Part shown: positions 6,138 through 42,178 of the stretch, one piece after another
Position numbering within the stretch: the first letter of the stretch is position 1
Layout of the letters: every line of letters begins with the position of its first letter
NCBI RefSeq assembly: GCF_002161805.1
Contig: NZ_NFIP01000004.1
Location: 1-64,000 of the forward strand
DNA from: Collinsella sp. An307
GTDB taxonomy: Bacteria > Actinomycetota > Coriobacteriia > Coriobacteriales > Coriobacteriaceae
Length of the DNA: 64,000 nt
Direction of reading: 5' to 3'
Made by a program: the position numbers and the translations under genes
The notes under the pieces: model-generated
What the model was told of the DNA's origin: nothing
The model's input: only the letters and a program-made list of their open reading frames with translations
Database searches by the model: none

Positions 6138-8351
6138 TTAGCCACGCCCCCTCTCACCAAACGCAGGGGCAGCCCGCATTCCCAGTTCCTGTACATAGTC
6201 TTGGGGCAGTACGTCGATTTCGGTTTGCCGCCACACGATGGGCTGGCGCGCACGAATCAGCTCGGCAATTCCCTCGTTATCTCTTGCGGTGTGATTGGAC
6301 CACGGCGTCCACCATCTGCCAGCCGCTTTTACCACTAAGCGCTGAACGTCTTCAGACCAGCCAATCGCCTCAACTGGGTCACCCGTGGGGACCTGCCAAG
6401 CCTGCGTCTGCTGGAAGCGCATCTTGGGAGAGAGGGAATAGCACACCACAAATCCTGACGACGTACCCGCCGCAAATGACAGGCCGTCTGAAGCGAGGCT
6501 TACCGCCGCTACCTCCCCCATACGCTCCTTGAGAACGACACCGTCTGAGCCCGAATCGTTGGACATCGTGATACGGGACCCTTCCGCCTCTACGCTCATC
6601 CACCCCACAGAGTCAAAGAGCCCGGTGCTCAGGCGGGCGTAGGCGGGCTCCGCAGCGCAGGGAATCAAATCGGCGAGGTCATCGACAGCCGTGTAGAAAC
6701 CGTTCGAGCAGCATGCGATGCCATCGGATGATACGGATATGAAGCAGACACCCGCCATAGTCTGGGCAATCTCACCCAAAAGCGCGCCTGTCACGCGGTC
6801 GAAGACCTGCACGCCGTCCGCGGCAGTCGCGATTATGACCACATCGTTGGTCGCCGCCATCGCGTCGGGAAGGTCACGTACGGTGGCACCGATACGCCTG
6901 GGCGCAGGCGCAGCTCCATCGAGCCCTATCTCAAGGAGCGCACCGTCCGCACAAATGACCGCGCTGCCGTCGGGCGCCAGTGCGCCGGTGTACACCTGCG
7001 CCTCAGGTACCGTAACTTCAAACACGGCCGCCAGGTCGAATCCCTTCAGCAGCTCGACCGTCGTCCCCTTGCGAACGAGGGCGCAGGGGCCGAGCGCGGT
7101 GCGCGCGCACGCAAGCACCTCGTCAAAACCATCCGCGTAAGAACCGATACGCGCAGAAACAATGCTTGTCACCGCGTTTGTCTGCGCGATGACAGCATCG
7201 TCTCCATCTTCGGAAATCGCAACGTCAACGGCGTCACGCACATCTTCTGCGAGGGTCTTCCGCGCGTCGCTTGCCAGGTCGAGCAGGTGCACGCCCTCCG
7301 TATCGGCAACAACCGCTCGCGAGCCGTCGGGTGTGACATCGAACACAAACTGGTCATCCGAAGAGGCCTGAACGGACGTAGCACCGTAAAGGGCCTGCAT
7401 ATCCCAAGCTTCAAGCACGCCGCCACGAGCCCGCACCCAGTAGGTACCATCGTCGGTAAAGGCCCCATCCCCCTGCCACGTACCATCGCGTTGAAGGTCG
7501 ACCGTCCCCAGGGTGCCAGCAGGCCAATGTGCCCTGAGGCTTGAGTAAAACCCCACGGTAGTTGGCACAGACCAATCCCCTAGAGTGACATCGCGGGAAG
7601 CCGATGCCGTCTCGACTGCCGTGAATGCAGGGTCGTTCTCGTAAGACGAGCTGAATGAGCTACGCGCAAGGGCGAGCGACTCACTCACCTGCTCGGACAC
7701 GGCCCAACGGACCAGCAGCACCACGCCAATTGCCACAATCACGAAAAATGCCGTAAACATGGCCCTTTGCATGTTGTGTCTGCGCACCCGAGCCGAAAGA
7801 AGCAGCGAGGCGTGCACGTAGGCTGCCAACGTCTTATCGACCGTGTAAAACGTGTCGTTTGCCATCTCCTGGATAACGTCAAACGCTCGCTCGGCATCCT
7901 CTTTATTCTGGATGAGGAAGCTGTTGTCGCGCCCCACAAGATCCCAGCGCTCGGCACGCGTTCTCAGGTCTTCGAATTCTTGATACAGCCAAACATGCGC
8001 CCGAAACAGGCGATCCCATGCTTCGGGCAACTCGCGCGCCCAAATCCATTGGCGCTCGCGCAGGGGCGAGCCCGCAGGGCCACAACGCTCGGGCGTGATG
8101 GAATCGAGCTGCACCGGGACAGCGCTTAGGGCCGCATCGGCACGCATCTCGGCATGCGCCATAAACGCAGGGTCTGCCGCAGCCGCCTCAGACAGGAGCA
8201 CGACGCAAAGCGTCGCCCGCGCAGAATCGGCAGCATCGGGCAACACTCGCCAGCCATTGCGCTCCGCGGCAGAAGCCACCTCGGCGTATCTAATCGAATC
8301 ATGCTGATGGGCCACAATGAGCACGGTTCGTTCGGCCGCTGCATCCCCCAT
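6138..8351 (-). CDS. degenerate TIR-like - transmembrane - beta-propeller protein
   Basis: 737 residues, paralogous in design to the gene just downstream. Residues 1-80 look like a weakened TIR fold (TVLIVAHQHDSIRYAEV, NGWRVLPDA, CVVLLSEAAAADPAFMAHAE); E68 could correspond to the catalytic glutamate, but the TIR surface motifs are poor. The linker pattern is clear at about 130-185 (RAERWDLVGRDNSFLI, TVDKTLAAYVHASLLLSARVRR). A membrane helix spans about 197-216. The rest is a repeat-rich propeller-like region (GSAVICADGALLEIGLDG, DGVQVFDRVTGALLGEI). The ATG at 8351 is chosen for the AGGGAGG 6 nt upstream; longer in-frame starts run into the metQ terminator. It is the first gene of a two-gene unit. 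Confidence 0.75.
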   Translation of the reverse strand: MGDAAAERTVLIVAHQHDSIRYAEVASAAERNGWRVLPDAADSARATLCVVLLSEAAAADPAFMAHAEMRADAALSAVPVQLDSITPERCGPAGSPLRERQWIWARELPEAWDRLFRAHVWLYQEFEDLRTRAERWDLVGRDNSFLIQNKEDAERAFDVIQEMANDTFYTVDKTLAAYVHASLLLSARVRRHNMQRAMFTAFFVIVAIGVVLLVRWAVSEQVSESLALARSSFSSSYENDPAFTAVETASASRDVTLGDWSVPTTVGFYSSLRAHWPAGTLGTVDLQRDGTWQGDGAFTDDGTYWVRARGGVLEAWDMQALYGATSVQASSDDQFVFDVTPDGSRAVVADTEGVHLLDLASDARKTLAEDVRDAVDVAISEDGDDAVIAQTNAVTSIVSARIGSYADGFDEVLACARTALGPCALVRKGTTVELLKGFDLAAVFEVTVPEAQVYTGALAPDGSAVICADGALLEIGLDGAAPAPRRIGATVRDLPDAMAATNDVVIIATAADGVQVFDRVTGALLGEIAQTMAGVCFISVSSDGIACCSNGFYTAVDDLADLIPCAAEPAYARLSTGLFDSVGWMSVEAEGSRITMSNDSGSDGVVLKERMGEVAAVSLASDGLSFAAGTSSGFVVCYSLSPKMRFQQTQAWQVPTGDPVEAIGWSEDVQRLVVKAAGRWWTPWSNHTARDNEGIAELIRARQPIVWRQTEIDVLPQDYVQELGMRAAPAFGERGRG

Positions 8352-8398
8352 GCCTGCCTCCCTAGTCGCTCTTGGCGTCATCATATCATGCCAAAACA

Positions 8399-8429
8399 AC
8401 AAAGGCCCCGCAGCGTGCGGGGCCTTTGC
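8399..8429 (-). terminator. rho-independent terminator after metQ
   Basis: A perfect 12-bp stem (8401-8412 with 8416-8427, loop GCG) is followed on the minus strand by a T-rich run, GTTGTTTTGG. It lies 60 bp past the metQ stop and just upstream of the TIR-like gene, so it separates the two operons. Confidence 0.9.
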
Positions 8430-8488
8430 GAAACGATGTCTGACGGATTCACTCGACGCGACGCTCAAGCGCGTTCCGCTCGAAATCC

Positions 8489-9322
8489 TTAGAATGCAGC
8501 CTGGACGGAATCGCCAAAGGTCTCCTCAAGGTAGGCCTTGAAGTCCTCGGTCTGAAGAACCTCAACGAGGGCGACGATGCACTCGTCATCCTCAAGCTCG
8601 GGACGCGTGCAGATGACGTTTGCATACTCCTCGGCGATGATCTCGGAGTCGGCGCGCTCCTGCGCGACCGCGTCGGCAAGCGTGAGACCGGCATCGATGG
8701 CATAGTTGCCGTTGATGACCGCAAAATCGACGTCGGCGAGCGTGGAGGGAAGCATGGCGGCCTCCTGCTCGGAGAACTGAATGTTGTGGGGGTTGTCCAC
8801 GATGTCGTTGGGCGTGGCCTCGAGACCAGCATCATCGGAAAGCGTAATCACACCCTGCTCCTGGAGAAGCAGCAGCGCACGACCCTCGTTGGTGGGGTCG
8901 TTAGGGATGGAGATGGTGGCACCGTCGGTGATAGCAGCAAGGTCGTTCGAACGGCCGGCGAACACGCCCATCGGCTCGAAGTGAATCTTACCGGCGTTAA
9001 CAAGGTCGGTGCCATTTTCGGCGTTGTAGTTGTTGAGATAGTTGATGTGCTGGAAGTAGTTGGCATCCAGATCGCCCGACGTGACATCCTGGTTGGGCTT
9101 GATGTAGTCGGTGTATTCCTTCACCTCAAGAGTAATGCCCTGCTCCTCCAGGCGAGGCGCAACAAAGTCGTTCAGGATCTCGGCGTGAGGGCTCGGCGAG
9201 GCGCCGATCTTCAAGGTGCCGTGCTCGTGCTTGGGCTTGCTACCGCAGCCAGCAAGAGACGACACGGCGAGCACGGCAGCGGAAGCGAACAGGGAGCGAC
9301 GGGTAAACGTGAAGTTCTGCAT
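8489..9322 (-). CDS. metQ: methionine ABC transporter substrate-binding lipoprotein
   Basis: 277-residue NlpA-family binding protein that captures methionine outside the membrane and delivers it to MetNI. It has a basic start, a hydrophobic signal segment and a lipobox LAGC near residue 25. Family blocks seen are GASPSPHAEIL, DANYFQHINYL, SIPNDPTNEGRALLLLQ and the NGNYAIDAG region. AAGGAA precedes the ATG. It is the last gene of metN-metI-metQ, 47 bp after metI, and is followed by a strong terminator. The NlpA family also includes binders of other small amino acids, but the Met-rich leader of this operon supports methionine. Confidence 0.92.
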   Translation of the reverse strand: MQNFTFTRRSLFASAAVLAVSSLAGCGSKPKHEHGTLKIGASPSPHAEILNDFVAPRLEEQGITLEVKEYTDYIKPNQDVTSGDLDANYFQHINYLNNYNAENGTDLVNAGKIHFEPMGVFAGRSNDLAAITDGATISIPNDPTNEGRALLLLQEQGVITLSDDAGLEATPNDIVDNPHNIQFSEQEAAMLPSTLADVDFAVINGNYAIDAGLTLADAVAQERADSEIIAEEYANVICTRPELEDDECIVALVEVLQTEDFKAYLEETFGDSVQAAF

Positions 9323-9369: not shown

Positions 9370-10056
9370 CTAAGAGTGTGCGGAGCGATGATCGCTCTTA
9401 CGTGCAAGGAAGTCGCACAAGCTCTGGATGACTTGCACAATCACCACCAAGATGATGACGGCGGCAAGCATGACGTCAGACTGATACCGGTAGTAGCCGT
9501 AACGGATGGCGATATCGCCCAAACCGCCCGCACCAACAGCGCCGGCAATAGCGGTATAGCCGAGTACGGAGATGAGCACGACCGCGACGCCGCGAACGAT
9601 CGAAGGCAGTGCCTCAGGCAAGAGAGCCGAGAACACGATGCGCGGGGTGCTCGCACCGCAAGCCTCAACAGCCTCCACGCTCTCGCGCGGGACCTCGGCG
9701 AGCGACTGCTCGATCATACGCGCAATGAACGGCGAGGCAGAAAGCACAAGCGGCGGGATGGTGCCGAGGATTCCCGAGCCCGTGCCCATGATAAGGCGCG
9801 TGAACGGGATGATGAACACCATAAGCACGATGAACGGGAACGACCGGAGGATGTTGACCACCCAGCCGAGGACCGCGTTCAGCGCAGGGATGGGACGCAG
9901 CGACCCCGGTGCGGTGAGGTAAAGCACCACGCCGAGCGCAAGGCCGATGACATAGGAGATGGCGGTGGGGATGAGGACCATGATGATGGTCGAACCCGTG
10001 CCCTCGAAAAGAAGCCCGCCGTATTCGGCGAGAAACGCGGATACGGTATCAAGCAT
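9370..10056 (-). CDS. metI: methionine ABC transporter permease
   Basis: 228-residue inner-membrane permease with about five hydrophobic segments and a binding-protein-dependent transport signature around VEAVEACGASTPRIVFSALLPEALPSI, where the EAA loop docks with the ATPase. The start at 10056 overlaps the end of metN by 8 nt, so the two are coupled; AAGGG lies about 10 nt upstream. The length is normal for MetI. Confidence 0.92.
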   Translation of the reverse strand: MLDTVSAFLAEYGGLLFEGTGSTIIMVLIPTAISYVIGLALGVVLYLTAPGSLRPIPALNAVLGWVVNILRSFPFIVLMVFIIPFTRLIMGTGSGILGTIPPLVLSASPFIARMIEQSLAEVPRESVEAVEACGASTPRIVFSALLPEALPSIVRGVAVVLISVLGYTAIAGAVGAGGLGDIAIRYGYYRYQSDVMLAAVIILVVIVQVIQSLCDFLARKSDHRSAHS

Positions 10057-10798
10057 CCCAATCAACCCTTTCGAGCAGCACCTGTGCAGCATGGGACTGG
10101 GGCGCGGCAAAAACATCCGCCACGCTCCCCTGCTCGACCACCTGGCCGTGCTCGAGCACCGCGACGTTCGTGCAGATCTTCTCGACCACGCCCATGGAGT
10201 GGGTGATGACGATGACCGTGACGCCCGTCTTGCGGTTGATGTCGCGCAGGAGCTTAAGAATCGTGTTCGTGCTCGCCGGGTCGAGGGCGCTCGTGGCCTC
10301 GTCGCAAAGGATGTACTCGGGATCGCACGCCAGCGCGCGGGCGATGGCTACGCGCTGCTGCTGCCCACCGGAGAGCTGAGACGGATAGGACTGAGCCTTA
10401 TCTTTGAGACCGACCATGTCGAGCAGTTCGAGCGCGCGCTCGCGGTTCTCGGACGTGACCTTGCCCGTGGCCGCCTTGTAGGGGAAGCACACGTTGGCAA
10501 GCACGGTCTTTTGTGCGAGCAGACCAAAGTTCTGGAAGATCATGGCAACGCGACGGCGATAGGCACGCAGCGCGGCGCCGGAGAGCCCGGTGACGTCCTG
10601 CCCGTCGACGATGATACTGCCCGACGTGGGGCTTTCCAGCAGGTTGATGCAGCGTACAAGCGTCGACTTGCCCGCGCCGCTCATGCCGATGATGCCCATG
10701 ATGTCGCCGTCGGCGATAGAAAGGCTCACATCGTTTAGCGCATGGGCCGTACCGCCGGCGCTCTCGAAGGTCTTAGTGAGGTGTTTGATTTCAATCAC
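10049..10798 (-). CDS. metN: methionine ABC transporter ATP-binding protein, short form without NIL domain
   Basis: 249-residue ABC ATPase that powers methionine import. Walker A is GMSGAGKST, the signature is LSGGQQQRVAIARAL, Walker B is ILCDEATSALDP, and the switch His lies in VIVITHSMG. The protein stops right after the ABC core. The C-terminal NIL (ACT-like) methionine-sensing domain that makes many MetN proteins about 340 residues long is absent. The GTG at 10798 begins the family start (VIEIKHLTKTF). It is preceded by the Met-rich leader ORF and the hairpins at 10829-10862. Confidence 0.93.
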   Translation of the reverse strand: MIEIKHLTKTFESAGGTAHALNDVSLSIADGDIMGIIGMSGAGKSTLVRCINLLESPTSGSIIVDGQDVTGLSGAALRAYRRRVAMIFQNFGLLAQKTVLANVCFPYKAATGKVTSENRERALELLDMVGLKDKAQSYPSQLSGGQQQRVAIARALACDPEYILCDEATSALDPASTNTILKLLRDINRKTGVTVIVITHSMGVVEKICTNVAVLEHGQVVEQGSVADVFAAPQSHAAQVLLERVDWDA

Positions 10799-10828
10799 GA
10801 GGTTGGCTCCGCTCGATGAGGATGGTCT

Positions 10829-10862
10829 CAAAAGAGGCGAACAGCCTCCCGCCGGAGGCTGC
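10829..10862 (-). promoter_or_regulatory. candidate attenuator hairpins in the metNIQ leader
   Basis: On the minus strand an 8-bp hairpin (CAGCCTCC-GGCG-GGAGGCTG, 10861-10842) overlaps a second one. GAGGC (10848-10844) can instead pair with GCCTC (10838-10834), which is followed by TTTT (10833-10830). The two folds are mutually exclusive. A third segment, GCCTC at 10873-10869, can also pair with GAGGC. CGCCCGG just after the Met codons (10927-10921) can pair with CCGGGCG (10879-10873). The leader ORF stop is 2 nt before the first hairpin. This is the layout of translation-coupled attenuation. The U-tract is short, so termination strength is uncertain. Confidence 0.65.
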
Positions 10863-10979
10863 TTAACTGAGGCGCCCGGTCTTTCCCTGCACGCGACGAT
10901 CGCGCGGCATGACAAAGTGCCCGGGCGAGGGCATCTGCATGACCATCATCATCGTGATATGTGCGGAAATCGTAAACAT
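10863..10979 (-). CDS. methionine-rich leader peptide of metNIQ
   Basis: A 38-codon ORF runs from ATG (10979) to TAA (10863). Residues 10-16 read MMMVMQM, that is five Met codons in seven, and residues 1 and 24 are also Met. There is no Shine-Dalgarno site. TTGCGT and TAACCT with a 17-nt spacer place the transcription start on or next to the A of the ATG, so the message is probably leaderless, which is common in actinobacteria. The stop abuts the attenuator-like hairpins in front of metN. The inferred role is to sense Met-tRNA supply through ribosome stalling. Confidence 0.7.
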   Translation of the reverse strand: MFTISAHITMMMVMQMPSPGHFVMPRDRRVQGKTGRLS

Positions 10980-11015
10980 GGTGATTAGGTTAGCAGCGCA
11001 GGGGGGCAAACGCAA
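10980..11015 (-). promoter_or_regulatory. promoter of the metNIQ leader (leaderless start)
   Basis: On the minus strand -35 TTGCGT (11015-11010) and -10 TAACCT (10992-10987) are separated by exactly 17 nt. The expected start lies 7-8 nt downstream, at or beside the leader ATG (10979). Confidence 0.55.
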
Positions 11016-11097
11016 CCCGCGAATGTTATCGGTTGGTTACACCGCAGCAGCGCGCTGCTGCGCGGGTGCGCGGCGTTGCTGTCGCACAGACATTTCA

Positions 11098-11252
11098 GGC
11101 AAGAATCGAAGTAATGAACCCAGGTAATGCGCGATTCGGCGCTTTTCGACACATCGGGTTCATTACTTCGATTTTCGCAGGCTCTCTACCTGCACTTCTT
11201 CTACGAGTTCACTACCGGGTTCACTACCGGGTTCATTACTTCGATTCTTGCC
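11098..11252. repeat. inverted/direct/tandem repeat cluster
   Basis: A 24-bp arm at 11098-11121 is perfectly inverted at 11229-11252. A direct copy of its 18-base core (GGGTTCATTACTTCGATT) also sits at 11156-11173. Immediately before the last arm a 12-bp unit, GTTCACTACCGG, is tandemly repeated at 11207-11218 and 11219-11230 and runs into the third arm, which shares its first bases. The cluster lies in the 468-bp gene-free stretch 10980-11447 between the met leader promoter and the end of the Gls24 gene. Function is unknown. Confidence 0.8.
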
Positions 11253-41817: not shown

Positions 41818-42178
41818 AGCAACCCTCGCCATGGCATCGTCCCATCCCTCATATGTCCGCCTTGCGCGGAACCTGCCGCCCGCACAAGGCGGACGGCGCC
41901 ATAATCTCAGCCCCTCAGCTGACCTGGTCTTTGACCCCACACTTGCGCACCGGGGCGTTTGCTCGGGATGCCGCGGCATCCTTCACGACTGACCCGCTCG
42001 CCCGCGGGGCGGTATTGCCCCAAAGTTGGTAGGACGGACGGTGCGGCTTACCTCTAGGACGCGCCATGATCGTCCCCGCGCGCACGCGGCGACTTACGTG
42101 GATCCCTTTGACCGCGTCTGTCTTGGACTAGGGTGGATGTGCACCCGCAACCACAGCCTGAGGGTTGTTGGCATTATA
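41818..42178 (-). ncRNA. candidate structured RNA or long structured leader
   Basis: A consensus -10 hexamer TATAAT (42178-42173, minus strand) sits just past the comF stop. About 5-10 nt after the expected start, CCCTCA(G)GCTG can pair with CAGCTGAGGG roughly 250 nt later, closing the whole region, and TGGTT can stack with GACCA. Inside lie local hairpins GGGTG/CACCC, CCGCG/CGCGG, GGGGC/GCCCC and the 16-bp palindrome GGATGCCGCGGCATCC (41969-41984). A 10-bp stem (41855-41864 with 41885-41894) follows, just before the lipoprotein gene. I do not recognise RNase P, tmRNA, 6S, SRP or a known riboswitch. It could be a free RNA or the leader of the lipoprotein gene. Confidence 0.4.

Follow-up and report, generated by a model that had tools for sequence, protein, structure and literature searches.

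Does the short methionine-rich open reading frame (ORF) in front of the methionine importer operon metNIQ of Collinsella sp. An307 allow the ribosomes that translate it to control the operon? The question was raised by a preliminary description of the window, by which we mean the whole 64,000-nucleotide stretch of DNA that was analysed. Bacteria control methionine genes by SAM riboswitches, Met T-boxes and repressors, and to our knowledge hardly any methionine versions of leader-peptide switches have been described. Methionine stands apart from other amino acids in that every protein starts with it. With a conserved Met leader-peptide attenuator, the known modes of methionine control would be joined by a tRNA-charging route, in common gut bacteria, and such an element makes it testable how a cell reads elongator Met-tRNA apart from initiation.

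The metNIQ operon and its leader

The three importer genes lie on the minus strand: metN at 10049-10798 (GTG start at 10798, 249 amino acids), metI at 9370-10116 (start codon not fixed) and metQ at 8489-9322. All three proteins match methionine-transporter models in NCBIfam, but under the curated cut-offs. The match of MetN to TIGR02314 is limited to positions 1-240 of the 343 in the model, and the main match in Pfam is the ABC domain. MetN therefore lacks the C-terminal regulatory domain, and the cell may control the importer through its expression and not through feedback on the protein. In some Collinsella genomes (seven loci), a few tens of residues seem to have been inserted into MetN close to the N-terminus. 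Downstream of metQ, an ORF of 776 amino acids (6138-8468, minus strand, TTG start as listed) matched no NCBIfam or Pfam family at an E-value of 0.001. Elsewhere in the window, positions 41910-42166 of the minus strand hold a raiA RNA (RF03072), a conserved structured RNA that scored 144 bits against a gathering score of 101.3.

The leader ORF is read on the minus strand from an ATG at 10979 to a TAA at 10865-10863. It comprises 38 codons before the stop and encodes the peptide MFTISAHITMMMVMQMPSPGHFVMPRDRRVQGKTGRLS, which opens with MFTISAHITMMMVMQMPSPGH; both the homologues and the frame test described below are in agreement with it. The preliminary description had placed a 38-codon Met-rich ORF before metN, and both its coordinates and the pairings that it named were correct. 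The putative regulatory Met codons, recognised from the sequence and from the in-frame enrichment of Met, span 10932-10952 and consist of three consecutive ATG codons at 10952-10944, followed by one at 10940-10938 and another at 10934-10932. A pattern search for ATGATGATGNNNATG returned five sites in the genome, one of which is the leader.

Upstream of the ORF, a −35-like hexamer, TTGCGT (11010-11015, minus strand), is separated by a spacer of 17 nt from a −10 hexamer, TAACCT (10987-10992), which in turn is separated by 7 nt from the leader ATG. A CTTGC-like hexamer aligns with the −35-like hexamer in relatives, while a strict sigma-70 scan of the leader region in the window called no promoter. 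The ORF had been described as leaderless-looking. In keeping with this, of 94 homologous leaders that have a −10-like hexamer, 86 have their first ATG 7 or 8 nt after it, as is usual for leaderless mRNA. This spacing suggests that the leader transcript begins at the ATG of the Met-rich ORF. A repeat around CGAAGTAATGAACCC is present in several direct and inverted copies at 11093-11250, just upstream of the leader promoter.

Distribution of the leader and conservation of its frame

Each of the nine genomes available for the genus has leader DNA upstream of metN (9/9). In the family and the class, loci were found via MetI, after which the upstream regions were extracted and the leaders examined. 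Approximately 80 loci from Coriobacteriaceae and Atopobiaceae, labels that were taken from the genera matched (Collinsella, Enorma, Olsenella and Thermophilibacter), contain a leader with the segment ATG-CCC-NNG-CCC-GGG-CAC before metN, and this segment shows almost no variation, third codon positions included. About 20 further loci from other families contain leaders that are diverged yet recognisable, such as MSFEFVHTMTNMMMHMLKPGLVGVCADAQA. These probably include Eggerthellaceae, although the family of the weaker leaders was assigned from pattern and position, and the label Eggerthellaceae is a guess. Some of the Atopobiaceae and Eggerthellaceae-like leaders have just one or two internal Met codons. 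In operons with the gene order metQNI, a similar Met-rich ORF with the sequence MTMAMSM(H/S/Y)MPSSRAPR... precedes metQ in three genomes, so that the leader accompanies whichever gene comes first.

A covariance model built from 47 leaders gave strong matches that were confined to the upstream regions of metN in Coriobacteriaceae and Atopobiaceae; away from metN, all matches were weak (E-values above approximately 1e-4). An exact RNA pattern searched across 84,980 species matched 59 times, 58 of them in Coriobacteriia. Of these 59 matches, 56 were verified to lie immediately upstream of metN and two were cut by the end of the locus. The one match outside Coriobacteriia, in Humidesulfovibrio, looks like chance. 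The leader was not found in the upstream regions of many other Coriobacteriia with metNI, and 37 metNI loci without the leader gave no element when scanned against Rfam. Operons with the same metNIQ gene order and no leader were seen at six loci and at others.

In 93 of the 94 loci, the first ATG after the −10 hexamer shares its frame with the motif, at about a dozen different spacings, and changes in length that preserve the frame recur among the leaders. Between the start and the motif, 197 ATG triplets are in frame, as compared to 4 and 1 in the other two frames and to roughly 15 in-frame triplets expected from base-shuffled sequence. The loci are phylogenetically correlated and these counts over relatives are of non-independent sequences, but the excess is a large one. 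The conservation of the frame suggests that the leader ORF is translated.

Paired segments in the leader RNA

Segment A (GCCCGG, 10921-10926, minus strand) is predicted to pair with segment B (CCGGGC, 10874-10879), and in the window the pairing extends to 7 bp if the flanking C10927-G10873 is counted. The RNAalifold consensus of the 47 leaders consists of A:B and a hairpin, here called T1, and nothing else. T1 (AGCAGCCTCC GGCG GGAGGCTGTT, 10840-10863, minus strand) is antiterminator-like, its 5' arm abuts the stop codon, and all ten of its pairs show compensatory changes. Across the 47 leaders, 12 of the 16 pairs have changed on both sides (76 cells), which was equalled in none of 500 shuffles, and the signal vanishes when the partner strand is slid. 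Within the Coriobacteriaceae and Atopobiaceae, nearly all of the covariation comes from T1, and A:B hardly varies. Across families, 16 combinations of A and B were seen, with replacements of C-G by U-A and of G-C by A-U, and nearly all are paired over at least six positions. Because B was sought there as the sequence that best complements A, this count leans towards pairing.

These comparisons bear on the preliminary description, which had paired 10921-10927 with 10873-10879 and had suggested a comparison with related Coriobacteriia as a check. The pairing exists and covaries, T1 covaries strongly, and the ORF, its frame and its Met enrichment are kept in the relatives. Given the presence of the leader throughout the genus and the excess of in-frame ATG triplets, the original observation is more than chance.

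A further hairpin, P1 (TGCCC/GGGCA, 10918-10933, minus strand), is an alternative to A:B, with which it shares the GG at 10922-10921, and it is conserved in 99% of cells. An H-type pseudoknot of P1 and a loop:B pairing was considered as the main fold and rejected: its pairs are conserved, but the compensatory changes in P1 are limited to one genus, and A:B together with T1 is the fold preferred by RNAalifold, a program unable to represent pseudoknots.

A terminator-like hairpin in the Coriobacteriaceae

Hairpin scans and folding identified a terminator-like hairpin with a U-rich tail, T2, at 10830-10853 of the minus strand (GGCGGGAGGCTGTTCGCC TCTTTT, or the overlapping GGGAGGC/GCCTCTT). In the Coriobacteriaceae, T2 takes the form GGCGGG.../CCCGCC with a U-rich tail, and it overlaps T1, so that the two cannot coexist. 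A 451-base stretch contains three terminator-like hairpins with a T-rich tail on both strands, against a mean of 0.5 in shuffles; two of them overlap one another after the ORF and the third lies inside it. When T2 is defined as a stem followed by at least four U in seven bases, it occurs in 28 of 42 leaders from Coriobacteriaceae, in none of 35 from Atopobiaceae and in 3 of 18 others (shuffles approximately 2% or less), and with a stricter filter of five U in eight, in 7 of the 42 Coriobacteriaceae leaders. The overlapping terminator and antiterminator of the preliminary description thus hold for the Coriobacteriaceae, including the window, and do not extend to the Atopobiaceae or to most of the Eggerthellaceae-like leaders.

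In constrained folding, a ribosome was represented by a footprint of 30 unpaired bases. The stop codon adjoins the 5' arm of T1 in 35 of 38 loci, and a footprint at the stop codon favoured T2 over T1 in 35/38, while a footprint at the Met codons favoured T1 over T2 in 29/38. With the ribosome at the stop codon, A:B was lost in nearly all loci. The loci also agree with a rule by which either A or B is always covered at the stop codon, but such a rule is too easily satisfied to count as a test. For the leader of the window, cut at the U-run, the predicted structures differ with the position of the ribosome: T1 extended by a pairing of B with a segment E (0.98), directly before the U-run and terminator-like, if there is no ribosome; A:B with plain T1 if the ribosome stalls at Met 10-14; and T2 if it is at the stop codon. 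The A:B of the stalled state was read off the drawn structures. These predicted states are what a classical attenuator needs. B:E was rejected as a general terminator, as it is present in the fold of the window and absent as a general feature in the relatives.

The predicted folds in the window, the frequency of U-tailed T2 stems in the Coriobacteriaceae and the position of the stop codon next to T1 would also be consistent with a purely transcriptional attenuation, as put forward in the preliminary description, in which the A:B/T1 antiterminator competes with the T2 terminator and any pairing with the Shine-Dalgarno sequence of metN is incidental. However, the U-tailed hairpin is missing from the Atopobiaceae and rare in the other families, yet both of these groups keep A:B, and the Atopobiaceae keep T1 as well. 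Together with the pairing to the Shine-Dalgarno sequence, to which we now turn, this makes the alternative unlikely.

Pairing of the leader with the metN Shine-Dalgarno sequence

The Shine-Dalgarno sequence of metN, GCGGAG, is located at 10807-10812 of the minus strand. In the minimum free energy fold of the window leader and in duplex tests, it is part of a base helix, H0, in which the 5' half of the leader ORF, including part of the Met run, is predicted to pair with the Shine-Dalgarno region. The 5' strand (10941-10975, minus strand) comprises 10975-10970, 10968-10963 (TTCCGC), 10954-10949 (CGATGA) and 10947-10941 (GATGGTC), and the 3' strand (10795-10827) comprises 10827-10821, 10819-10814, the Shine-Dalgarno sequence at 10812-10807 and the start region at 10800-10795. 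The helix includes TTCCGC/GCGGAG, CGATGA/TCATCG and GATGGTC/GACCATC, and the predicted probability that the Shine-Dalgarno sequence is paired with the leader is 0.93.

Among 68 dereplicated leaders, native duplexes between leader and Shine-Dalgarno sequence have a mean energy of −19.4 kcal/mol, as compared to −16.3 kcal/mol for swapped partners, and none of 5000 permutations was as low. In full folds, the probability of this pairing is 0.59, versus 0.21 with the leader codons shuffled, and the native value is higher in 47 of 58 loci. In other families, perfect helices of 7-13 bp with different sequences cover the Shine-Dalgarno sequence (TCGTACATA/TATGTACGA, TCGTACAGAT/ATCTGTACGA and TCCTACATAC/GTATGTAGGA), and several loci of this set have no helix better than swapped partners. 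A pairing that is stronger than with swapped partners and that reappears in other families with other sequences is unlikely to be incidental. The helix was absent from the preliminary description, and it makes it likelier that translational attenuation is the output shared across families.

A footprint on the Met codons lowers the mean cost of opening the Shine-Dalgarno sequence from 5.5 to 5.0 kcal/mol (p = 0.02), and raises its accessibility in just 32 of 57 loci; the difference in cost between a Met-codon and a stop footprint was not significant (p = 0.11). The predicted effect of a stalled ribosome is thus modest, though of the right sign, and for this reason the direction of the Shine-Dalgarno layer is weaker than its existence.

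A short sequence, ACATA, is conserved in nearly all leaders approximately 20-35 nt upstream of the ATGCCC motif (about 10962-10957 in the window), and is in another reading frame in some Atopobiaceae leaders. It belongs to the Shine-Dalgarno pairing in other families and to an internal loop in the Coriobacteriaceae.

A methionine-sensing attenuator as the likely function

We consider it likely that the leader is a methionine-sensing, ribosome-mediated attenuator, which probably acts on both transcription and translation in the Coriobacteriaceae and on translation elsewhere. Comparison of the related sequences brings out the leader ORF, its frame, the leaderless spacing, the enrichment of Met, A:B, T1, H0 and, in the Coriobacteriaceae, T2. 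Of the Met leader-peptide attenuation first proposed for this locus, the frame, the leaderless start, the covariation of A:B and T1 and the T1/T2 switch were borne out, while the terminator turned out not to be general and the helix over the Shine-Dalgarno sequence had been missed.

A ligand-binding riboswitch for Met or SAM, with A:B and P1 as its conserved core and the ORF as a secondary feature, could account for the near-invariance of ATGCCC-NNG-CCCGGGCAC at the nucleotide level, including third codon positions, for the joint covariation of all three elements P1, A and B within a single genus, and for the otherwise unexplained conservation of ACATA and of a GGCR loop. However, a riboswitch would need neither a strictly conserved frame nor an enrichment of Met, the core drifts in other families, and a search of Rfam, including SAM riboswitches, the T-box and amino-acid leaders, gave no relevant match to the leader at gathering or permissive thresholds, all of which makes a riboswitch improbable. 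Somewhat less probable still is a regulated arrest of the nascent peptide at M-P-K/S-P-G-H, with the peptide sensing Met or SAM in the ribosome tunnel. In its favour, MPKPG/MPSPGH is conserved also as a Pro-rich peptide immediately after the Met run. Against it, the codons are more conserved than the amino acids, motif residues 3 and 6 vary as RNA pairing explains, and no PKPG motif is present in the leaders of metQNI operons.

In the methionine-sensing attenuator that we favour, we infer that the charging of Met-tRNA is the signal and that the ribosome stalls, as well as the ON/OFF sign and the size of the response. When charged Met-tRNA is scarce, the ribosome would stall in the Met run, leaving A and B free to pair, so that T1 would form and T2 would be blocked. 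The stalled ribosome would also sit on the part of the leader to which the Shine-Dalgarno sequence of metN is otherwise paired. With T1 formed and the Shine-Dalgarno sequence freed, both transcription and translation of metNIQ would follow. With Met in good supply, the ribosome would go on to the stop codon and cover the 5' arm of T1 as well as B, and in the Coriobacteriaceae T2 would form. In transcripts that are read through, H0 would close over the Shine-Dalgarno sequence after the ribosome has departed.

Starvation for Met should also cut initiation on the leader itself, via fMet-tRNA, and this counts against the scheme, as do the modest predicted effect of a stalled ribosome on the Shine-Dalgarno sequence, the restricted occurrence of B:E, the leaders with one or two internal Met codons and the many Coriobacteriia with metNI that have no such leader. 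Because Met starvation limits fMet-tRNA too, our own suggestion is that the strongest response may come when starvation is mild, in which consecutive elongator Met codons are slow and initiation is still running. The bolder reading, that this is a class-wide Met attenuator with a dual output, in which a single leader ORF governs a terminator as well as the Shine-Dalgarno sequence of the importer operon and works despite impaired initiation of its own, is tentative, with nearly as much for it as against it.

Comparison with known leader-peptide systems

In the trp, his, leu and thr attenuators, the stop codon lies beside mutually exclusive antiterminator and terminator hairpins. The Coriobacteriaceae leaders share this arrangement and differ in the amino acid, in the leaderless start and in the helix that hides the Shine-Dalgarno sequence. 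Polycysteine ORFs of mycobacteria are reportedly the subject of an experimental paper on translational attenuation by Canestrari in 2020. These ORFs, which are leaderless and precede cysteine genes, were presented as candidates (PMC4633059), and a passage of PMC13236596 cites them as acting by translational attenuation. Like the leaders studied here, they are actinobacterial, leaderless, rich in the regulated amino acid and placed before the operon, but the amino acid is cysteine.

Judged by its published description, the closest architecture appears to be that of the LEU element, which precedes leuA in Actinobacteria and has a base stem formed by the codon run and the Shine-Dalgarno sequence (PMC1262725). 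In the genomes that it covered, the survey that described this element saw no conserved RNA structure upstream of methionine operons (PMC1262725). The present leader likewise has an ORF with a codon run, conserved internal helices and a base stem between the codon run and the Shine-Dalgarno sequence of the first gene. The LEU element differs in that it belongs to leucine biosynthesis and has other helices, and the present leader adds a U-tailed terminator in the Coriobacteriaceae.

No Met attenuator of the present kind was found in the open-licence literature. The preliminary description had known of no methionine version of leader-peptide attenuation, but in 2021 metL, a leaderless leader ahead of the metNIQ genes in Streptomyces lividans, was put forward as a Met attenuator, with termination unclear (PMC8079986). 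The two share a short leaderless ORF before metNIQ and the suggested function. They differ in that metL, a proposal only, is Met-poor, with two internal Met among its 29 residues, and in that the proposal gives no structure. At seven streptomycete loci, we observed a short ORF approximately 200-300 nt before metN with the tail GARCMCRMCAF or close variants. The conserved Cys/Met tail (ARCMCRMCAF) of the streptomycete leaders has, by eye, no sequence similarity to the present leaders, and its mixture of Cys and Met leaves the sensed amino acid ambiguous. The leader of Collinsella and its relatives is thus a new variant of a Met leader rather than the first such leader to be claimed before metNIQ.
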